Source: a virus. Taken from it: a DNA stretch of 35,631 nucleotides. A program made the translations under genes and the position numbers. This document shows positions 16,890 through 35,631 of the stretch, piece after piece. The first letter of the stretch is position 1; every line of letters begins with the position of its first letter. The stretch covers positions 1 through 35,631 of the IMG/VR virus record IMGVR_UViG_3300042874_000185. The stretch is one strand, 5' to 3'. Under the pieces are notes generated by a model. It was not told where the DNA came from. It saw only the letters and a list, made by a program, of their open reading frames with translations, and ran no database searches.

Positions 16890-18113
16890 CTAAAAAAACG
16901 CATGAATATTCGGTTTGACTTCAACTAACGGTATCGCACCGGTAAACACAGCGTAACGGATTGAGTCCATGGCATCATCATTCAGCTTGATGGGTTCATC
17001 CAACGGGTTATCAGATTTATCCAACTTCCAGCTGTACAGATTAAGCTCGTTGATGATATTGGTACTGCCTCTGGTCACATGAATATTATAGCTCGACACT
17101 TTATCAATCCCAGCCTTTACATTCTTGATAGCCTTGGTGACACTAAACCCTGCCTGCCTAAGCTCTTTGATACGGTCAGGTTCTGCACTGTCTGCCCTGC
17201 CCTGTAATCTCATAATATAGGGGTGCGTTTCTTTCACCGTGCGCATCATTTCAGAGGTGGTACTGTTTGAGCGATAATACACTTCATTGATATACATGTC
17301 GTTCCCGTCTATCATTACTTCAGTGAGTGCCATAGGGTGGTTGAACCCAAAGTCCAGTCCCCATCTATGCACCTCCGCATCACGTGGCATTCTATCTATA
17401 ACGGTGTACCTCTCAAAGATAAGCCCTTTGAGAACTCCCCACTTGCCCAAAGCATACACATCATAGTAAGTTCTGTTTGTATCCTTCAGCGCGGTCAGTA
17501 TCTCCACATATTTGGCATCGATAAATCGGTTATCAAGATAGGTGGTGTGCAGGATAACAGCGTCTTTGTCTTTAGTGTCAAAGAACCTGCTCTTGAGCCA
17601 GTGTTTGGAGCTGATAGGGTTGAACGAAATCATTATCTGTTTGTAGTTCTTGAGATGGTCACCACGCAATCTTAGATCCAGTTGCGTAAAATCATCAAGG
17701 GTAAACTCTGATGCTTCTTCCATCCAAAGTGAGGTGATGTCTTTGATAGACTTCATCTTTTCTTTATTATCTAGTCCCTTAAAAACAATGCAGCTGTTAT
17801 TAACGGTGCACTTTATTGTCATTTCACCCGTCAGGGACTCTGAATAGCTAAAGAGAGACGATAAGCCCATCGTATGTATCGCGCCTATTATTTCAGCACG
17901 TGAAGATTGTCTGATGGTATTTTCCACTTTTCTTAGAACTAGCAGGTTATGGTCTTTTTCAGTGAGTACACGGATAACTATCTTCTGCGCTGCAAACACA
18001 GACTTTCCCGAACCTGCACCCCCATACAGCACCAAGTAACGAGAGTCCGTCCAGATATGCTTAAAGTATTCATCATTGATGATTTTATCAAGATGGGTAA
18101 AGTCTACTTTCAT
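16890..18113 (-). CDS. terL: Terminase large subunit, PBSX type
   Basis: The motor that packages DNA into the head. Start chosen at 18113 (MKVDFTHLD), where ATG and the previous TGA overlap as ATGA; the in-frame ATG at 18131 would add six residues. Visible motifs are Walker A (YGGAGSGKS, ~residue 30), Walker B with catalytic acid (SLWMEEASEF, ~130) and the coupling region (ISFNPISSKHWLK). The C-terminal RNase H-like nuclease shows acidic residues in GLDFGFNHP, RADSAEPDRIKE and NDDAMDSIRYA. The PBSX family (Terminase_3) usually packages by headful, which fits a circular assembly. About 407 residues, normal for the family. Confidence 0.95.
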   Translation of the reverse strand: MKVDFTHLDKIINDEYFKHIWTDSRYLVLYGGAGSGKSVFAAQKIVIRVLTEKDHNLLVLRKVENTIRQSSRAEIIGAIHTMGLSSLFSYSESLTGEMTIKCTVNNSCIVFKGLDNKEKMKSIKDITSLWMEEASEFTLDDFTQLDLRLRGDHLKNYKQIMISFNPISSKHWLKSRFFDTKDKDAVILHTTYLDNRFIDAKYVEILTALKDTNRTYYDVYALGKWGVLKGLIFERYTVIDRMPRDAEVHRWGLDFGFNHPMALTEVMIDGNDMYINEVYYRSNSTTSEMMRTVKETHPYIMRLQGRADSAEPDRIKELRQAGFSVTKAIKNVKAGIDKVSSYNIHVTRGSTNIINELNLYSWKLDKSDNPLDEPIKLNDDAMDSIRYAVFTGAIPLVEVKPNIHAFF

Positions 18114-18448
18114 TCCAGCGACCTCTTCCATGCCTCCACTTCACGCGTGACATACAGGCACTCTATACACATCTCATCTTTGCTAGTCAGCTCAGTACCG
18201 CAGCGGGTGCATGGGTGGACATGGATGGTGATATTTTTAAATGCAAGAGCGGTCTTGCATTCATCAGAGCAGGTTGTAGCATATTTGACATTTAACTTTT
18301 TGTTGCAGTTCTTACAGTAACAGTCTCTTTTTGCTTTCTTGCACCATAAATCATTCGCATACTTTTGTCGGTGGCTGATGGTGCAGTACAAATAACCTGC
18401 TGGGAGGTGGTCTATGTTCTTCTTGCAATATTTACACAGCCGTGCCAT
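18110..18448 (-). CDS. Multi-zinc-ribbon protein between the terminase subunits
   Basis: 112 residues with several metal-binding motifs: CKYCKK near residue 5, CYCKNCNKK and TCSDEC in the middle, and CTRCGTEL with CIEC near the end. The spacing suggests two or three zinc modules. There is no HNH signature (no suitable His-Asn-His), so it is not the usual packaging-associated HNH nuclease. Its place between small and large terminase genes, with a 4-base overlap onto terL, suggests a packaging or DNA-binding accessory role. This is inference. Confidence 0.75.
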   Translation of the reverse strand: MARLCKYCKKNIDHLPAGYLYCTISHRQKYANDLWCKKAKRDCYCKNCNKKLNVKYATTCSDECKTALAFKNITIHVHPCTRCGTELTSKDEMCIECLYVTREVEAWKRSLE

Positions 18449-19152: not shown

Positions 19153-19224
19153 TTGGTAACCTTTCAAAGTTTCCCTATAGATAATGGTTTTTGTATGTAA
19201 TCGGTTGTTTGGTTTCGATTAGAC

Positions 19225-19273
19225 ACACTTGCAATTGATGGTATTATACCATTTTTTTTACAAGTGTCGTCAA
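19225..19273 (-). promoter_or_regulatory. Late-unit promoter with dyad operator over the -10 box
   Basis: On the minus strand TATAAT lies at 19248-19243 and TTGACG at 19273-19268, 19 bases apart (slightly long). The -10 is embedded in a 15-base palindrome, ATGGTATTATACCAT (19238-19252), nested within a wider inverted repeat ACACTTG/CAAGTGT (19225-19231, 19261-19267). The concentric dyads suggest a repressor or activator site. Transcription would start about 85 bases before the first late gene. Confidence 0.6.
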
Positions 19274-19284
19274 CCCAATGTCAG

Positions 19285-19320
19285 ACCATGTTTTGGCGCA
19301 TGGTGGTTTGATATTACCAC
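19285..19320. repeat. Two adjacent short inverted repeats upstream of the late promoter
   Basis: ACCATG (19285-19290) pairs with CATGGT (19299-19304) over an 8-base loop, and GTGGT (19303-19307) pairs with ACCAC (19316-19320) over another 8-base loop. They lie directly upstream of the late promoter candidate and could be further regulator sites or single-strand hairpins of the origin region. Confidence 0.4.
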
Positions 19321-19378
19321 GGTTTGATAAATAGCGATAATAGAATCGGAATCCCGCTTGTATTCTCGCACTGTATTA

Positions 19379-19790
19379 TGCTACAGCAAAAAAATCATAC
19401 GCTCAAATCAACCCAAAACACCCACAAAATACACACCAAACAGACCAGTGCTGCCTATAGTATAGAAACAAGCCCAGTCGCAATCAGACCAGCTCAGACC
19501 AAACATCCAACCCAACCCAAACCACCAACCCCAACCCCACTCAAAATATCAATCAAAATCTAGTCCCAAAACACACCCAAATCCAACCCCAAAATACAGA
19601 CCAAAAAACACACCAAAAACACACCCATAAAATCAATCAAAAACGCACCCAAAATATCACACCAAAACACAGCCCCAAATCAAACCCAAAAAATCAGTCA
19701 AAATAAAATAAAAATAAAATAAAATTTACCCCCTTTTCAAATACCCCCATAAAATACCCCCAAAAACAAACAAATCAGAATTAATATAAA
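19379..19790. other. G-poor AC-rich non-coding block (left flank of origin)
   Basis: About 400 bases in which the plus strand consists almost only of A and C, built from loose repeats such as CCCAAAA, CACCAAAA and AATCAA. The minus strand is correspondingly G/T-rich: 19506-19541 reads as runs of GG to GGGG separated by TT or TTT, and 19725-19766 has three G5 runs. These could fold into G-quadruplexes. No gene is credible here. A TAC/Pro-biased frame at 19324-19563 is a composition artefact. The block lies between the divergent promoters and is not transcribed by either. Confidence 0.7.
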
Positions 19791-19860
19791 TACCAACACA
19801 AACGCACAGAATAGCCCCTTAAATCAATTTAAACCTATCCACCTATACCGATACTTAGCC

Positions 19861-19894: not shown

Positions 19895-20159
19895 ACTTTA
19901 TTAAAACTTTATTCGTTTTTTTAAATGAGTGATAAAGTTTTAAGCCCCGCCAGAGCGTGCTTTGCGGGAAACTTTATTAACTTTACTAACTTTATCCTAT
20001 TAGAGATAAATAGTATATAATTTAGTATATTACTATATATATGTATTTTTTTCTATTTTTCTATATTAGGATAAAGTTAATAAAGTTAATAAAGTTTTTC
20101 TAAGCCCCACCACACCGTGGTTATACTTTATTTTACTATGAATAAAGTTTTGATAAAGT
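19895..20159. other. Candidate replication origin: symmetric iteron array
   Basis: Twelve 7-mers, ACTTTAT (F) or ATAAAGT (R), start at 19895F, 19906F, 19932R, 19971F, 19980F (one base changed), 19989F, 20071R, 20080R, 20089R, 20125F, 20142R and 20153R. The order F F R - F F F - core - R R R - F R R is a perfect two-fold mirror. The spacings mirror as well: 11 bases in the outer pairs and 9 in the inner triplets. The 67-base core (20000-20066) is almost pure A/T, suitable for unwinding. GC-rich hairpins sit at matching places (19946-19968 and 20109-20121). Iterons plus an AT-rich unwinding element are the usual form of phage and plasmid origins. The likely initiator is encoded nearby at 20760. 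Confidence 0.7.
19969..20097. repeat. 31-bp inverted repeat around an AT-rich core
   Basis: Left arm 19969-19999 and right arm 20067-20097 are reverse complements with one mismatch. Each arm consists of three 9-base-spaced iterons followed by TCCTA/TAGGA. The arms are separated by 67 bases of A/T. Confidence 0.85.
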
Positions 20160-20200
20160 TGGTTTTAAAATCAAATACTAAAAAATATTAAAAAAATTAC

Positions 20201-20392
20201 AGAAAATCACCAAAAAATCACCAAATCACCCAAAAACAGCTCAAAATCAACCCAAATATTAACCCAAAAATCATATAAAATATCAAAAAATATTAGCCCA
20301 AAATATCACCCAAAAAACAGCTCAATTTATCACTCAATTTATCACCCAATTTATCACTCAAATCAACCCAAAATATCACCCAAGCCCCCCCC
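20201..20392. other. G-poor AC-rich non-coding block (right flank) with 12-bp repeats
   Basis: A second stretch with very few G, built from CACCAAAA, CCCAAAA and ATCACC motifs. It includes three tandem 12-base units, CAATTTATCACT or the C-ending variant, at 20323-20358, and ends in an eight-C run just before the early promoter. It resembles the left flank in composition. No open frame is credible. Confidence 0.65.
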
Positions 20393-20429
20393 TTGATTAA
20401 GAAACGATTAATCAATACTTTTATATAAT
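20393..20429 (+). promoter_or_regulatory. Early-unit promoter with 8-bp dyad operator
   Basis: A TATAAT box lies at 20424-20429. A perfect inverted repeat, TTGATTAA (20393-20400) and TTAATCAA (20408-20415) with a 7-base spacer, covers the position where a -35 box would be; no good -35 is present. This suggests regulation by a dimeric protein. The first early start codon is 37 bases downstream, with AAAGGG as ribosome site. Confidence 0.6.
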
Positions 20430-20465
20430 ACAAATGCACACCAATTTAAAAAGGGCATCAAAAAA

Positions 20466-20741
20466 ATGGAAGAAACCAAAAAAGATAATGAAACCAAAAA
20501 AGATAATGAAACCAAAAAAGATAATGAAACCAAAAAAGATAATGAAGTGCATGAAGTGTATTCTGACTATATAAAAGACCTGTTCAAAGACAAAACAGTG
20601 GGGGATAAGTTTGAAGTGGATTTAAAAGGGAACTACCCAGCACTGGTCAGGGCTTCTATTGCTCACCATGTAAGATGTGACTACAGAACCAGATACAACG
20701 GTGGAATTTTCACGGTTCAAATCATAGCACTCACTAAATAA
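20466..20741 (+). CDS. First early protein, with ETKKDN repeats
   Basis: 91 residues. Residues 3-26 are four exact copies of ETKKDN, a highly charged and probably disordered tail. The rest (residues ~30-91, HEVYSDYIKDLFKDKTVGDKFEVDLKGN...) is a small mixed fold with basic patches (HHVRCDYRTRYN). As the first gene after the origin and early promoter, just before the primase-helicase, it may bind DNA or act on the host early. The family is unknown. The start is supported by AAAGGG about ten bases upstream. Confidence 0.75.
   Translation: MEETKKDNETKKDNETKKDNETKKDNEVHEVYSDYIKDLFKDKTVGDKFEVDLKGNYPALVRASIAHHVRCDYRTRYNGGIFTVQIIALTK
20472..20543 (+). repeat. Four exact 18-bp tandem repeats in frame
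   Basis: Units start at 20472, 20490, 20508 and 20526, each GAAACCAAAAAAGATAAT. The length is a multiple of three, so slippage would change the number of ETKKDN units without breaking the frame. The identical DNA indicates recent expansion. Confidence 0.95.
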
Positions 20742-20759: not shown

Positions 20760-23006
20760 ATGATATATAGAGATTTTATTGACAATGGATATGCAATATT
20801 TGGGCTGTATGGTGCAAAAGACGGGTTATGCGATTGTCTTAACCCAAAGTGTCAAGCACTGTTTAAACACCCCCTTATATCAAACTGGCAGCACACAACA
20901 CCCATGGACGATGAACAACTAGAATGCGGTGAATTGACTGGGCAGTTTGAAACTGGGTACGGTGTACTGTGTAAGGGGTTACTGGTCATAGATGTAGATG
21001 CGCGCAATGGTGGTATTGAGAGTTATGAAAGACTGGTTGCTGATATCCCTGAGATTGCACAAAGCGGGCTGATAGTTGAAACTGGAAGCGGTGGAGGTTC
21101 ACGTCACCTGTTCTTTAGTGTACAAGGTGGTATTTCACTCCAGCAGCACCTTAACAAATATATGGGAATAGATTTTAAATCAAGCGGCTTTGTAGTGGGT
21201 GCTGGAAGCATACATAACAGCGGAAAAAGGTACAGGGTAGTCTATGGGTCACCCTCAGAGATAACAACCGCCCCTGAGCGTCTTTTGGAACTGCTGGTGC
21301 GTAATCATACTGTTGATAACAACAGCTATTCAACCACTTCTTCCAGCTCCATTGGGGATATGCTCAATATGCTCAATGTTATAGACCCTGACTGTAACTA
21401 TGAACAGTGGTATCGTATTGGTATGGCTATACATCATGAGACAAAAGGAGGGGAAAGCGGTTTTACACTGTGGAACGACTGGAGTAAAAAAGGCAAAAAA
21501 TATCCAGACTTGCAAGCACTGCAGGCACGATGGAACAGTTTCGGGAAATCAAGCGCAATTGTAACCGTTGGTACACTGGTTCATTACGCTGAAGAGGCTG
21601 GATATGTTACACCCGTTGAATTTGAAAATGTGGACTATTTTGAAGAAGAAACAAATATGTCTATCTTTGACCGGTTTAACCCACCTGCTCTAGCTGGCAG
21701 GATAGTAAGTTTTGTAAACAGCAAAAGCAGATTTCCACGTGAAAATCTAGCAGTCGCTGCTGCGCTTATGGCAATATCCAGTGCGTGTGGTTTGAGATAT
21801 AGATGCAAAGACACAGGCACAACTGCAAACATATTTACATTCGGTGTCGCAGGCTCTGGAACGGGTAAAGAAAACATACTGCAGACTTATACATCCCTTT
21901 TAGATGAGGCTGGTATAGTAAGTGCTGTACACGGTTCTATTAAATCAGAGCAGGAGATATACAGAAACATAACGCACCATCAAGCCGCGTTTTATGCGAT
22001 TGACGAAATGGGCGAAATGCTGAGTAAAATCCAAGGGGCTAGAAAAAAGAGCGGCAGCGCGGCTTATTTGGAGGGGATTATCGGGACACTGATGTCTATC
22101 TACTCAAAAGCAAACGGCATACAGCTTATTACGGGTGATGCAAAAAGAGAGATGCAAAAAGAGTTATCAATAAAAATATCCAGCGTGATGAGAAAGATTG
22201 AAAACAACGAAGCCACCGCTGCAGATAAAGAAAACCTGACAAGCTTGAAGAGTCAGTATGAGGAAAGCGAAAAAGGTATAGTCAATCCATACCTAAACCT
22301 TTTTGGATTAACCACTCCAAACAGATTTTATGAGTTGCTGGATAATGACATGGCAGAAAATGGGTTCTTTGCTAGAGCATTTATTTTCAAAGAAGATGAA
22401 GACAACCCACGTAAAAATAGTTCTTATACAGAACTGGATACAAATGATCGTGAGTTCAAAGCCATTGGGAATATTTTATCCAATATGCATCACGGAGGGT
22501 ACACAGCCAGCAGCAGAATAGAGAGGCTGGGTGAGCTTGAGTATATACCTACTAGCGCCAGTGGAAAGAATATCAGAGAAACAATAGCCAACCATTTTTG
22601 GGAAATGGGCGAAGTACAGAAAGAGACACAAGGCATGGTGGCACTGACACGCCGTGGTGCTGAAATGGTAAACAAATTGGCGTTAATTCTGGCAATAGAA
22701 GACGGTGAAATAAGAGATGAACACCTGCTATGGGCGTTTGAGTTTGTCAAAGACGATTTAAGAAGCAGAATACTTATCGCCCACTCAAACAGCACAGACG
22801 ATGGTGGCTTGGCAGTACTATCCAAAATAACATCAAGGCTGGACACAGTGAATGGATTATCTTTTGCAGTGCTGCAAAACAAAACAAAAATTAAAAAAGA
22901 AGACTTGAAGAACGCTATAGAATACCTCCTTAAACACAGCAAAATAAGTGAGGTTTGGACAACACCGGTGCGCGGCCCCAAAACAGTTAAATATGTATTA
23001 GTGTGA
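20760..23006 (+). CDS. Primase-polymerase / DUF3987-type helicase replication protein
   Basis: 748 residues. Residues ~1-185 are an archaeo-eukaryotic type Prim-Pol domain (PF09250): catalytic VIDVDARNGG, then GSGGGSRHLFF and the DFKSSGFVVGAGS motif. Residues ~195-285 match the PriCT_2 domain (NYEQWYRIGMAIHHE, KYPDLQALQARWNSF). The rest is a DUF3987-like ATPase, with Walker A GVAGSGTGKEN (~364-374) and acidic FYAIDEMGEM (~405-415). It should synthesise primers, and possibly copy DNA, and unwind at the fork; it probably acts as the initiator at the adjacent iteron origin. No other DNA polymerase is encoded. The start lacks a clear ribosome site. Confidence 0.9.
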   Translation: MIYRDFIDNGYAIFGLYGAKDGLCDCLNPKCQALFKHPLISNWQHTTPMDDEQLECGELTGQFETGYGVLCKGLLVIDVDARNGGIESYERLVADIPEIAQSGLIVETGSGGGSRHLFFSVQGGISLQQHLNKYMGIDFKSSGFVVGAGSIHNSGKRYRVVYGSPSEITTAPERLLELLVRNHTVDNNSYSTTSSSSIGDMLNMLNVIDPDCNYEQWYRIGMAIHHETKGGESGFTLWNDWSKKGKKYPDLQALQARWNSFGKSSAIVTVGTLVHYAEEAGYVTPVEFENVDYFEEETNMSIFDRFNPPALAGRIVSFVNSKSRFPRENLAVAAALMAISSACGLRYRCKDTGTTANIFTFGVAGSGTGKENILQTYTSLLDEAGIVSAVHGSIKSEQEIYRNITHHQAAFYAIDEMGEMLSKIQGARKKSGSAAYLEGIIGTLMSIYSKANGIQLITGDAKREMQKELSIKISSVMRKIENNEATAADKENLTSLKSQYEESEKGIVNPYLNLFGLTTPNRFYELLDNDMAENGFFARAFIFKEDEDNPRKNSSYTELDTNDREFKAIGNILSNMHHGGYTASSRIERLGELEYIPTSASGKNIRETIANHFWEMGEVQKETQGMVALTRRGAEMVNKLALILAIEDGEIRDEHLLWAFEFVKDDLRSRILIAHSNSTDDGGLAVLSKITSRLDTVNGLSFAVLQNKTKIKKEDLKNAIEYLLKHSKISEVWTTPVRGPKTVKYVLV

Positions 23007-35153: not shown

Positions 35154-35631
35154 CTTATTCTCTTTAGTTTGGTAGTCACAGTACAACCATTGCCTTCAAG
35201 GATGGCTTTGTTTGCTAAACCAGCAGAGCTAGGTATACCATTCGTGCCACCCTCTAGCGAAATAGTAGCACCAATGACTCCAGCATTAACGCACGCCTGT
35301 AAAATATCGTCTACTGCTTGAACACTTAAGTTATTATCAGTTGCGGAAAAACTGTATAATGATGCAGGTAGTGAACCACCTGCAAAGCCTGTTAATTGGT
35401 TAGCACCAATATCTATTTCTTCCAACGCAGTATTGGCACTCAAGTCAGGTATCGAACCTGTTAATTGGTTGCTATTACAGTTAAAATAATTCAATAACGT
35501 ATTGGCACTCAAGTCAGGTATCGAACCTGTTAATTGGTTGCTATTACAGTTAAAATAATTCAATAACGTATTGGCACTCAAGTCAGGTATCGAACCTGTT
35601 AATTGGTTGCTATTACAGTTAAAATAATTCA
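35150..35631 (-). CDS. LRR tail-associated protein, C-terminal part (same gene as at 1-455)
   Basis: This is the 3' part of the gene that starts at 455. It holds two full near-identical 23-residue LRR units plus a partial one, then a diverged unit (ALEEIDIGANQLTG), a last irregular LRR-like stretch (SLPASLYSFSATDNNL) and a C-terminal cap ending TTKLKRIR. The pattern LxxxxCxxNQLTGSIPDL is typical of bacterial and phage LRR proteins that bind surface ligands. There is no signal peptide, as expected for a virion part. The stop TGA overlaps the ATG of the next small gene (ATGA), so the two are translationally coupled. An internal TTG within a repeat is not a credible start. Confidence 0.75.
   Translation of the reverse strand, partial: NYFNCNSNQLTGSIPDLSANTLLNYFNCNSNQLTGSIPDLSANTLLNYFNCNSNQLTGSIPDLSANTALEEIDIGANQLTGFAGGSLPASLYSFSATDNNLSVQAVDDILQACVNAGVIGATISLEGGTNGIPSSAGLANKAILEGNGCTVTTKLKRIR
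35436..35631. repeat. 69-bp tandem repeat (LRR units) at the right end
   Basis: Units start at 35436, 35505 and 35574, the last cut after 58 bases. They appear identical. Each unit encodes one 23-residue leucine-rich repeat on the minus strand. The tract length of 196 equals 127+69, exactly the length at which a 127-mer recurs within the tract. The assembler could not count the copies, so the real number may be larger. Confidence 0.85.

Follow-up and report, generated by a model that had tools for sequence, protein, structure and literature searches.

A two-fold symmetric iteron array beside a Prim-Pol/DUF3987 gene is a likely replication origin of a tailed phage

The closest known counterparts of the locus reported here are the origins of PICI/SaPI satellite islands, in which two iteron sets flank an AT-rich region, an arrangement that in 2018 was reported from "no other known bacterial replicon". 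Such PICI origins, with iteron sets on both sides of the AT-rich region, drive plasmid replication (PMC6092414); for EcCICFT073 the plasmid assay was made in E. coli DH5alpha. SaPI Rep reads the iterons by its C-terminal domain, and the origin lies 3' of its own gene (PMC7581432). In the origin of SaPIbov1, the iteron sets are reportedly symmetric about an AT-rich region that is melted by Rep.

Three other systems are related by their proteins. The pRN1 family (orf56/orf904) resembles our locus in pairing a gene for a small DNA-binding protein with one for a PrimPol-helicase-winged-helix protein, and in having its presumed origin in adjacent non-coding DNA (PMC4234260), but its helicase belongs to SF3, its origin is defined as a stem-loop of about 100 nt beside the replication gene, and no iterons have been recognised. 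Phage NrS-1, a phage of Epsilonproteobacteria, has a PrimPol fused to a ring-forming helicase domain and defined template start motifs (PMC7102993, PMC8718748), but no iteron array is reported in the NrS-1 literature that we examined. The PrimQH family of AEPs combines an AEP with PriCT, helicase and C-terminal winged helix domains (PMC5862659); the protein encoded at our locus meets this description, as judged from domain order only (Pfam and a model). That work concerned proteins only and described no origin. A search of the open-licence literature yielded no description of such arrays in PrimPol-DUF3987 phages.

The stretch of DNA analysed here (the window, 35,631 bp) is the record of a complete virus. 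It carries a 127-bp direct terminal repeat, which fits a circular assembly. This repeat (1-127 / 35505-35631) sits within a 69-bp (23-aa) tandem repeat, which may affect the end join. At 19895-20159 the window contains eleven exact copies of the 7-mer ACTTTAT, in forward (F) or reverse (R, ATAAAGT) orientation, and one copy with a single mismatch (ACTTTAC, 19980). Their order is F F R - F F F - core - R R R - F R R, so that six sites lie on each side of an 84% AT core. The parts of the array are as follows, with the first position of each site in brackets:

19895..19912, + strand: left outer iteron pair (ACTTTAT at 19895 and 19906, 11 bp apart); in relatives, outer sites are mostly 10-12 bp apart
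19932..19938, - strand: left inverted iteron of the outer tier (ATAAAGT at 19932); inverted outer sites are also common in relatives
19939..19970, no strand: left GC-rich spacer between the tiers (AAGCCCCGCCAGAGCG...); its hairpin is not significant (z -0.64)
19971..19995, + strand: left inner iteron triplet (19971, 19980 with one mismatch, 19989; 9 bp apart)
19996..20070, no strand: AT-rich core (84% AT), presumed DNA-unwinding element; cores are AT-rich in relatives too
20071..20095, - strand: right inner iteron triplet (20071, 20080, 20089; 9 bp apart)
20096..20124, no strand: right GC-rich spacer with a small hairpin (ACCACACCGTGGT; z -2.5) and GTGGTTA
20125..20131, + strand: right inverted iteron of the outer tier (ACTTTAT at 20125)
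20142..20159, - strand: right outer iteron pair (20142, 20153; 11 bp apart)

The spacing is thus mirrored, with 11 bp between the sites of each outer pair and steps of 9,9 in each triplet of the inner tier. A 31-bp inverted repeat (19969-19999 / 20067-20097) has one mismatch and extends to arms of 53 nt with 87% complementarity.

The array was compared with chance expectation under an order-2 Markov model. ACTTTAT is expected 0.24 times in 265 bp and was seen 11 times; across 1,500 simulated sequences, the most frequent 7-mer never rose above 6 copies in that length. Within the 35.6-kb record, no short-repeat cluster is stronger than the array, and no other non-coding repeat cluster comes close. 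Symmetry was scored by a dyad-pairing test; a two-block statistic is blind to the F F R / F R R pattern. In the hand-checked site list, each of the twelve sites has a partner of opposite orientation at the mirrored position around a common centre, to within +-7 bp, and for 10/12 the fit is within +-4 bp. The automated scan of the window also included three AATTTATC repeats (20324-20354), and symmetry was then scored as a tie. Random orientations on the fixed positions gave 12/12 pairing in 4% of trials, and orientation alone is therefore weaker evidence; copy number and the relatives carry the case. A first-pass annotation, made from the sequence alone, had described twelve 7-mers, their F/R order, the spacings of 11 and 9, a 31-bp inverted repeat with one mismatch, and a regularity beyond composition. 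All of these claims held, the first as eleven exact copies plus one near-exact copy and the last by the 11 copies against a simulated maximum of 6.

To the right of the array, the + strand encodes, in order, a 91-aa protein, a 748-aa Prim-Pol/PriCT-2/DUF3987 protein, a Sak4-like annealase, an SSB, a RecE-like nuclease and an SF2 helicase. On the other side, left of the array, the - strand carries a large terminase gene (16890-18131, 1.8 kb from the array) and further genes. The best matches of the terminase are Helicobacter pullorum prophages (47%), which makes a Campylobacterota host plausible without showing it. The two genes nearest to the array on the right are:

20466..20741, + strand: 91-aa protein that carries four ETKKDN repeats and, at its C-terminus, a conserved domain modelled as helix-strand-helix-hairpin
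20760..23006, + strand: 748-aa presumed initiator with Prim-Pol (residues 34-173), PriCT-2 (203-277), DUF3987 (about 309-672) and a C-terminal winged helix (682-747)

The 748-aa protein was modelled with AlphaFold2 from 27 aligned homologues (pLDDT 86). In the predicted model, residues 309-672 resemble archaeal and eukaryotic MCM proteins (Z 15.7-17.2), the best match being an archaeal MCM (Z 17.2, rmsd 3.6 A over 248 residues). DUF3987 is therefore predicted to adopt an MCM-type AAA+ helicase fold. The resemblance is one of fold only; helicase activity and assembly into a hexamer or double hexamer are inferred, and the winged helix likewise rests on the model. A sequence profile search of the PDB found no relative.

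The C-terminal domain of the 91-aa protein is conserved and confidently modelled, and homologues occur at the equivalent position in L034, L035, L046, L115-117, L120 and pYD21-A. Neither Pfam nor PHROG gave a match to this protein. A fold search returned nothing above noise (best Z 6.3; SCCmec LP1413 at 4.8), and we therefore name no family for it. The four exact ETKKDN repeats with which the protein starts are absent from its homologues.

Relatives of the presumed initiator provided the strongest evidence for an origin, which is comparative. A single-protein search of viral contigs found no homologues; an alignment-based search of these contigs succeeded and, together with cultured phages such as Pseudoalteromonas H103 and Vibrio pYD21-A, supplied homologous genes and their flanking DNA. 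For 152 homologous genes, which form 91 clusters at 80% identity, we scanned flanks of 1,200 bp. Arrays were picked by copy number only, blind to orientation, with the 5% level of 484 control stretches as the cut-off. A significant array was present in 43/91 clusters; in the remaining clusters the locus is truncated, the repeats have diverged, or the array is absent. Inverted pairing was better in 23 of the 43 arrays and same-orientation pairing in 7, with 13 ties, compared to 1, 9 and 4, respectively, among control arrays (Fisher p 3e-4; sign test 0.005).

Spacing was analysed in dyad arrays, which had been selected on symmetry and not on spacing. The window was excluded, and each side was split into groups more than 25 bp apart. 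Same-orientation neighbours were 7-9 bp apart in 61/69 inner cases and 10-12 bp apart in 40/65 outer cases (Fisher p about 1e-15). An inverted site within the outer group, as in the window, was found on 38/62 sides. The core was AT-richer than its own locus in 29/32 dyad arrays, and the array lay 3' of the primase gene in 24/32.

The repeat word was much less constant. In the nearest relatives (L034, L035 and L046), the order array - small ORF - primase is as in the window; the word is ACTTTAT in L034 and L046 and ACTTTTG in L035. The distant L023 has the window's motif (AACTTTAT) with 9-bp spacing in a mirrored array, on the 3' side of the primase gene. That gene (L023:980-3225) is broken into an 83-aa and a 699-aa frame that overlap, probably by an assembly frameshift or by a real break. 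Mirrored arrays were also built from other words, namely ATACACA (L041, L163), CAAGATAG (L094), AGATAGTC (L109), ACCGTTAGTA together with GATACAC (L132), CTATCTACTATC (H103, between co-directional genes) and CTATTTGCC (E. coli phage Sa179lw). The Sa179lw primase is about 31% identical to that of the window, and its array (L178 3379-3612) reads 11,11 / about 8,9, core, 8,9 / 11,11. The two-tier mirrored anatomy recurs in L132, L163, L094 and L101. Geometry is thus kept beside a homologous gene while the repeat sequence changes. The arrays of L075 and L098 are mainly direct repeats and not dyads, and a motif-pattern match in L019 was a coding repeat and was discarded.

The spacers between the tiers yielded a second shared feature. 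A consensus for IHF, WATCAANNNNTTR, was first noticed between the outer and inner tiers of three relatives. With one mismatch allowed, the spacers contain 23 IHF-like sites compared to 5.7 expected, and the cores 1 compared to 6.5 expected. The enrichment in relatives persisted without the three discovery loci (17 spacer sites vs 5.2 expected, 0/500 simulations). The window's own spacers contain no IHF-like site; one-mismatch matches occur only at 19899, 19922, 20143 and 20169. In the window group, the spacers hold GC-rich blocks where relatives of other hosts often have an IHF-like site. Among the spacer hairpins of this group, only the right one beats shuffles (z -2.5), and we therefore make no claim of an RSF1010-ssi-like role for the spacers. 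The right spacer also holds GTGGTTA (20110-20128), which overlaps both start motifs of the NrS-1 PrimPol, GTGG and TTTGGTTA (PMC8718748). A role as a priming site is possible, but this is a lead only.

We consider it likely that the array is the replication origin of the phage, read by the neighbouring initiator. This reading is based on the adjacent Prim-Pol/DUF3987 gene, the AT-rich core, and the mirrored arrays beside homologous genes in many relatives. No experiment has been done on the phage or its close relatives, and binding is inferred. The nearest known kind is the PICI/SaPI origin (SaPIbov1, EcCICFT073), and by analogy the window origin would work alike, with initiator binding and autonomous replication inferred. 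Set against published descriptions of PICI/SaPI origins, there are also differences. The window is not a satellite but a tailed phage, circular-looking and 35.6 kb long, with a terminase and other structural-type matches. Its helicase domain is DUF3987, whereas PICI/SaPI proteins have DUF927 or Primase_Cterm/D5_N. The phage arrays have two tiers per side with distinct spacing (8-9 vs 10-12 bp) and often an inverted outer site. Finally, the PICI/SaPI origin lies immediately 3' of the initiator gene, whereas the window array lies 5' of a small gene and the primase, and the arrays of relatives lie 5' or 3'.

The first-pass annotation had also proposed a replication origin, which is supported by the three observations above. 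It missed the PICI/SaPI precedent, and the array is therefore less unprecedented than it had thought. Its placement just before the primase-helicase gene held only in part, because the 91-aa gene intervenes. Its divergent promoters gained no support, with 9 promoter-like matches compared to 7.2 expected. Conservation of the motif among homologues, one of the conditions that it had set for the origin, is seen in L034, L046 and the distant L023; elsewhere the word changes and the geometry stays. Symmetric loading of two helicases and bidirectional replication remain inferred. The GC-skew check that it had suggested gave a minimum near 20-21 kb, yet this is uninformative. Coding-strand skew does not change sign in genes that a fork from the array would meet head-on (0.157 vs 0.043); skew switches with gene direction and so cannot separate replication from transcription. 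The arms on either side of the array (19168-19860 and 20160-20465) show a marked lack of G on the + strand (GC skew -0.47 and -0.67), and both carry degenerate CCCAAAATATCACC repeats. Since the same strand is G-poor on both sides, the arms provide no signature of bidirectional forks.

Which protein reads the repeats was approached by correlating motif similarity with domain identity over the 43 arrays. Motif similarity rose with sequence identity in the helicase domain (partial rank correlation 0.19, p 0.003) and in the winged helix (0.11, p 0.03); the primase and PriCT-2 domains showed no such relation. The correlations are weak but favour the C-terminal half, which may be the repeat reader, although there are no binding data. 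In SaPI Rep and SCCmec Cch2 it is the C-terminal domain that binds the origin (PMC7581432). L023 shares the motif with the window, yet the two have only 19% identity in the winged helix and differ in the type of small ORF. The binding protein therefore remains unidentified. The two tiers of L132 (6320-6520) use different words, ACCGTTAGTA in the outer and GATACAC in the inner tier, which suggests two different readers in some members.

A mechanism can be proposed in which the identity of the binding protein, the double ring, DNA bending, melting and bidirectionality are all inferred. The twelve ACTTTAT sites would be bound by the PrimPol-DUF3987 protein through its C-terminal winged helix, or else by the adjacent small protein. 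Each inner triplet would seed an MCM-like ring, so that two rings face each other across the 84% AT core. The outer tier, an 11-bp-spaced pair and one inverted site, would strengthen or regulate assembly via DNA bending; in related phages, the bend would probably be made by IHF. Melting of the core would provide the template on which the fused primase begins synthesis, and two forks would depart in opposite directions.

A bolder reading, which might as easily prove wrong as right, is that a sequence-independent grammar of two-tier dyad origins extends across a widespread lineage of tailed phages. Its mirrored layout would comprise an outer spacing of 10-12 bp, an IHF-type bend, an inner spacing of 8-9 bp and an AT core, with words that drift fast and a geometry that is kept, and one PrimPol-MCM-like protein would load itself as two facing rings without a separate loader. 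If true, the system would parallel the eukaryotic MCM double hexamer with a single protein. The present data put likely origins of the PICI/SaPI kind next to a helicase of MCM-like fold in tailed phages that are not satellites, with hosts that include at least E. coli, Vibrio, Pseudoalteromonas and uncultured ones, which suggests a link between satellite and phage replicons. They also offer a route to finding origins in thousands of PrimPol phages, and a one-protein system for testing the placement of two facing helicase rings by DNA geometry.

The alternative that survives best, though we regard it as unlikely, is an operator cluster, in which an adjacent repressor binds the repeats and controls divergent transcription while replication begins elsewhere. 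In its favour, the window array separates oppositely oriented gene blocks, and in many relatives the primase gene is directly preceded by one for a small HTH protein of the Cro/XRE type. Against it, most dyad arrays (24/32) lie on the 3' side of the primase gene, that of H103 between co-directional genes, for example; promoter-like sites in the window are at chance level; and one motif goes with two unrelated types of small protein, in the window and in L023.

Somewhat less support remains for an origin of the pRN1 type, in which the functional unit would be a large stem-loop (cruciform) of the inner arms rather than iterons read by a protein. The 129-nt inner dyad folds strongly as single-stranded DNA (z -8.2), and pRN1 likewise has a small DNA-binding protein and a PrimPol-helicase, with the origin downstream of the gene (PMC4234260). 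However, the window's repeats reach beyond the stem and obey iteron spacing. In relatives, the repeats are discrete 7-10-mers with fixed spacing of 8-9 and 10-12 bp and outer tiers beyond the palindrome, and it is the repeat units that are conserved rather than a long perfect stem (e.g. L041, L163). A packaging (pac/cos) or partition site is also very improbable: the large terminase gene lies 1.8 kb to the left, and a terminase is within a few kb in H103 and pYD21-A, but the constant neighbour in relatives is the primase gene, and in Sa179lw the 10-kb stretch surrounding this gene has no annotated terminase.

Outside the relatives that support the preferred reading of a protein-read iteron origin, a mirrored GGAACTTTA array (FF|RR, FF, FF|RR) was observed in L114 (10910-11229), after a gene with a DnaG-type zinc ribbon and TOPRIM. 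A similar origin layout thus stands there beside an unrelated type of primase.
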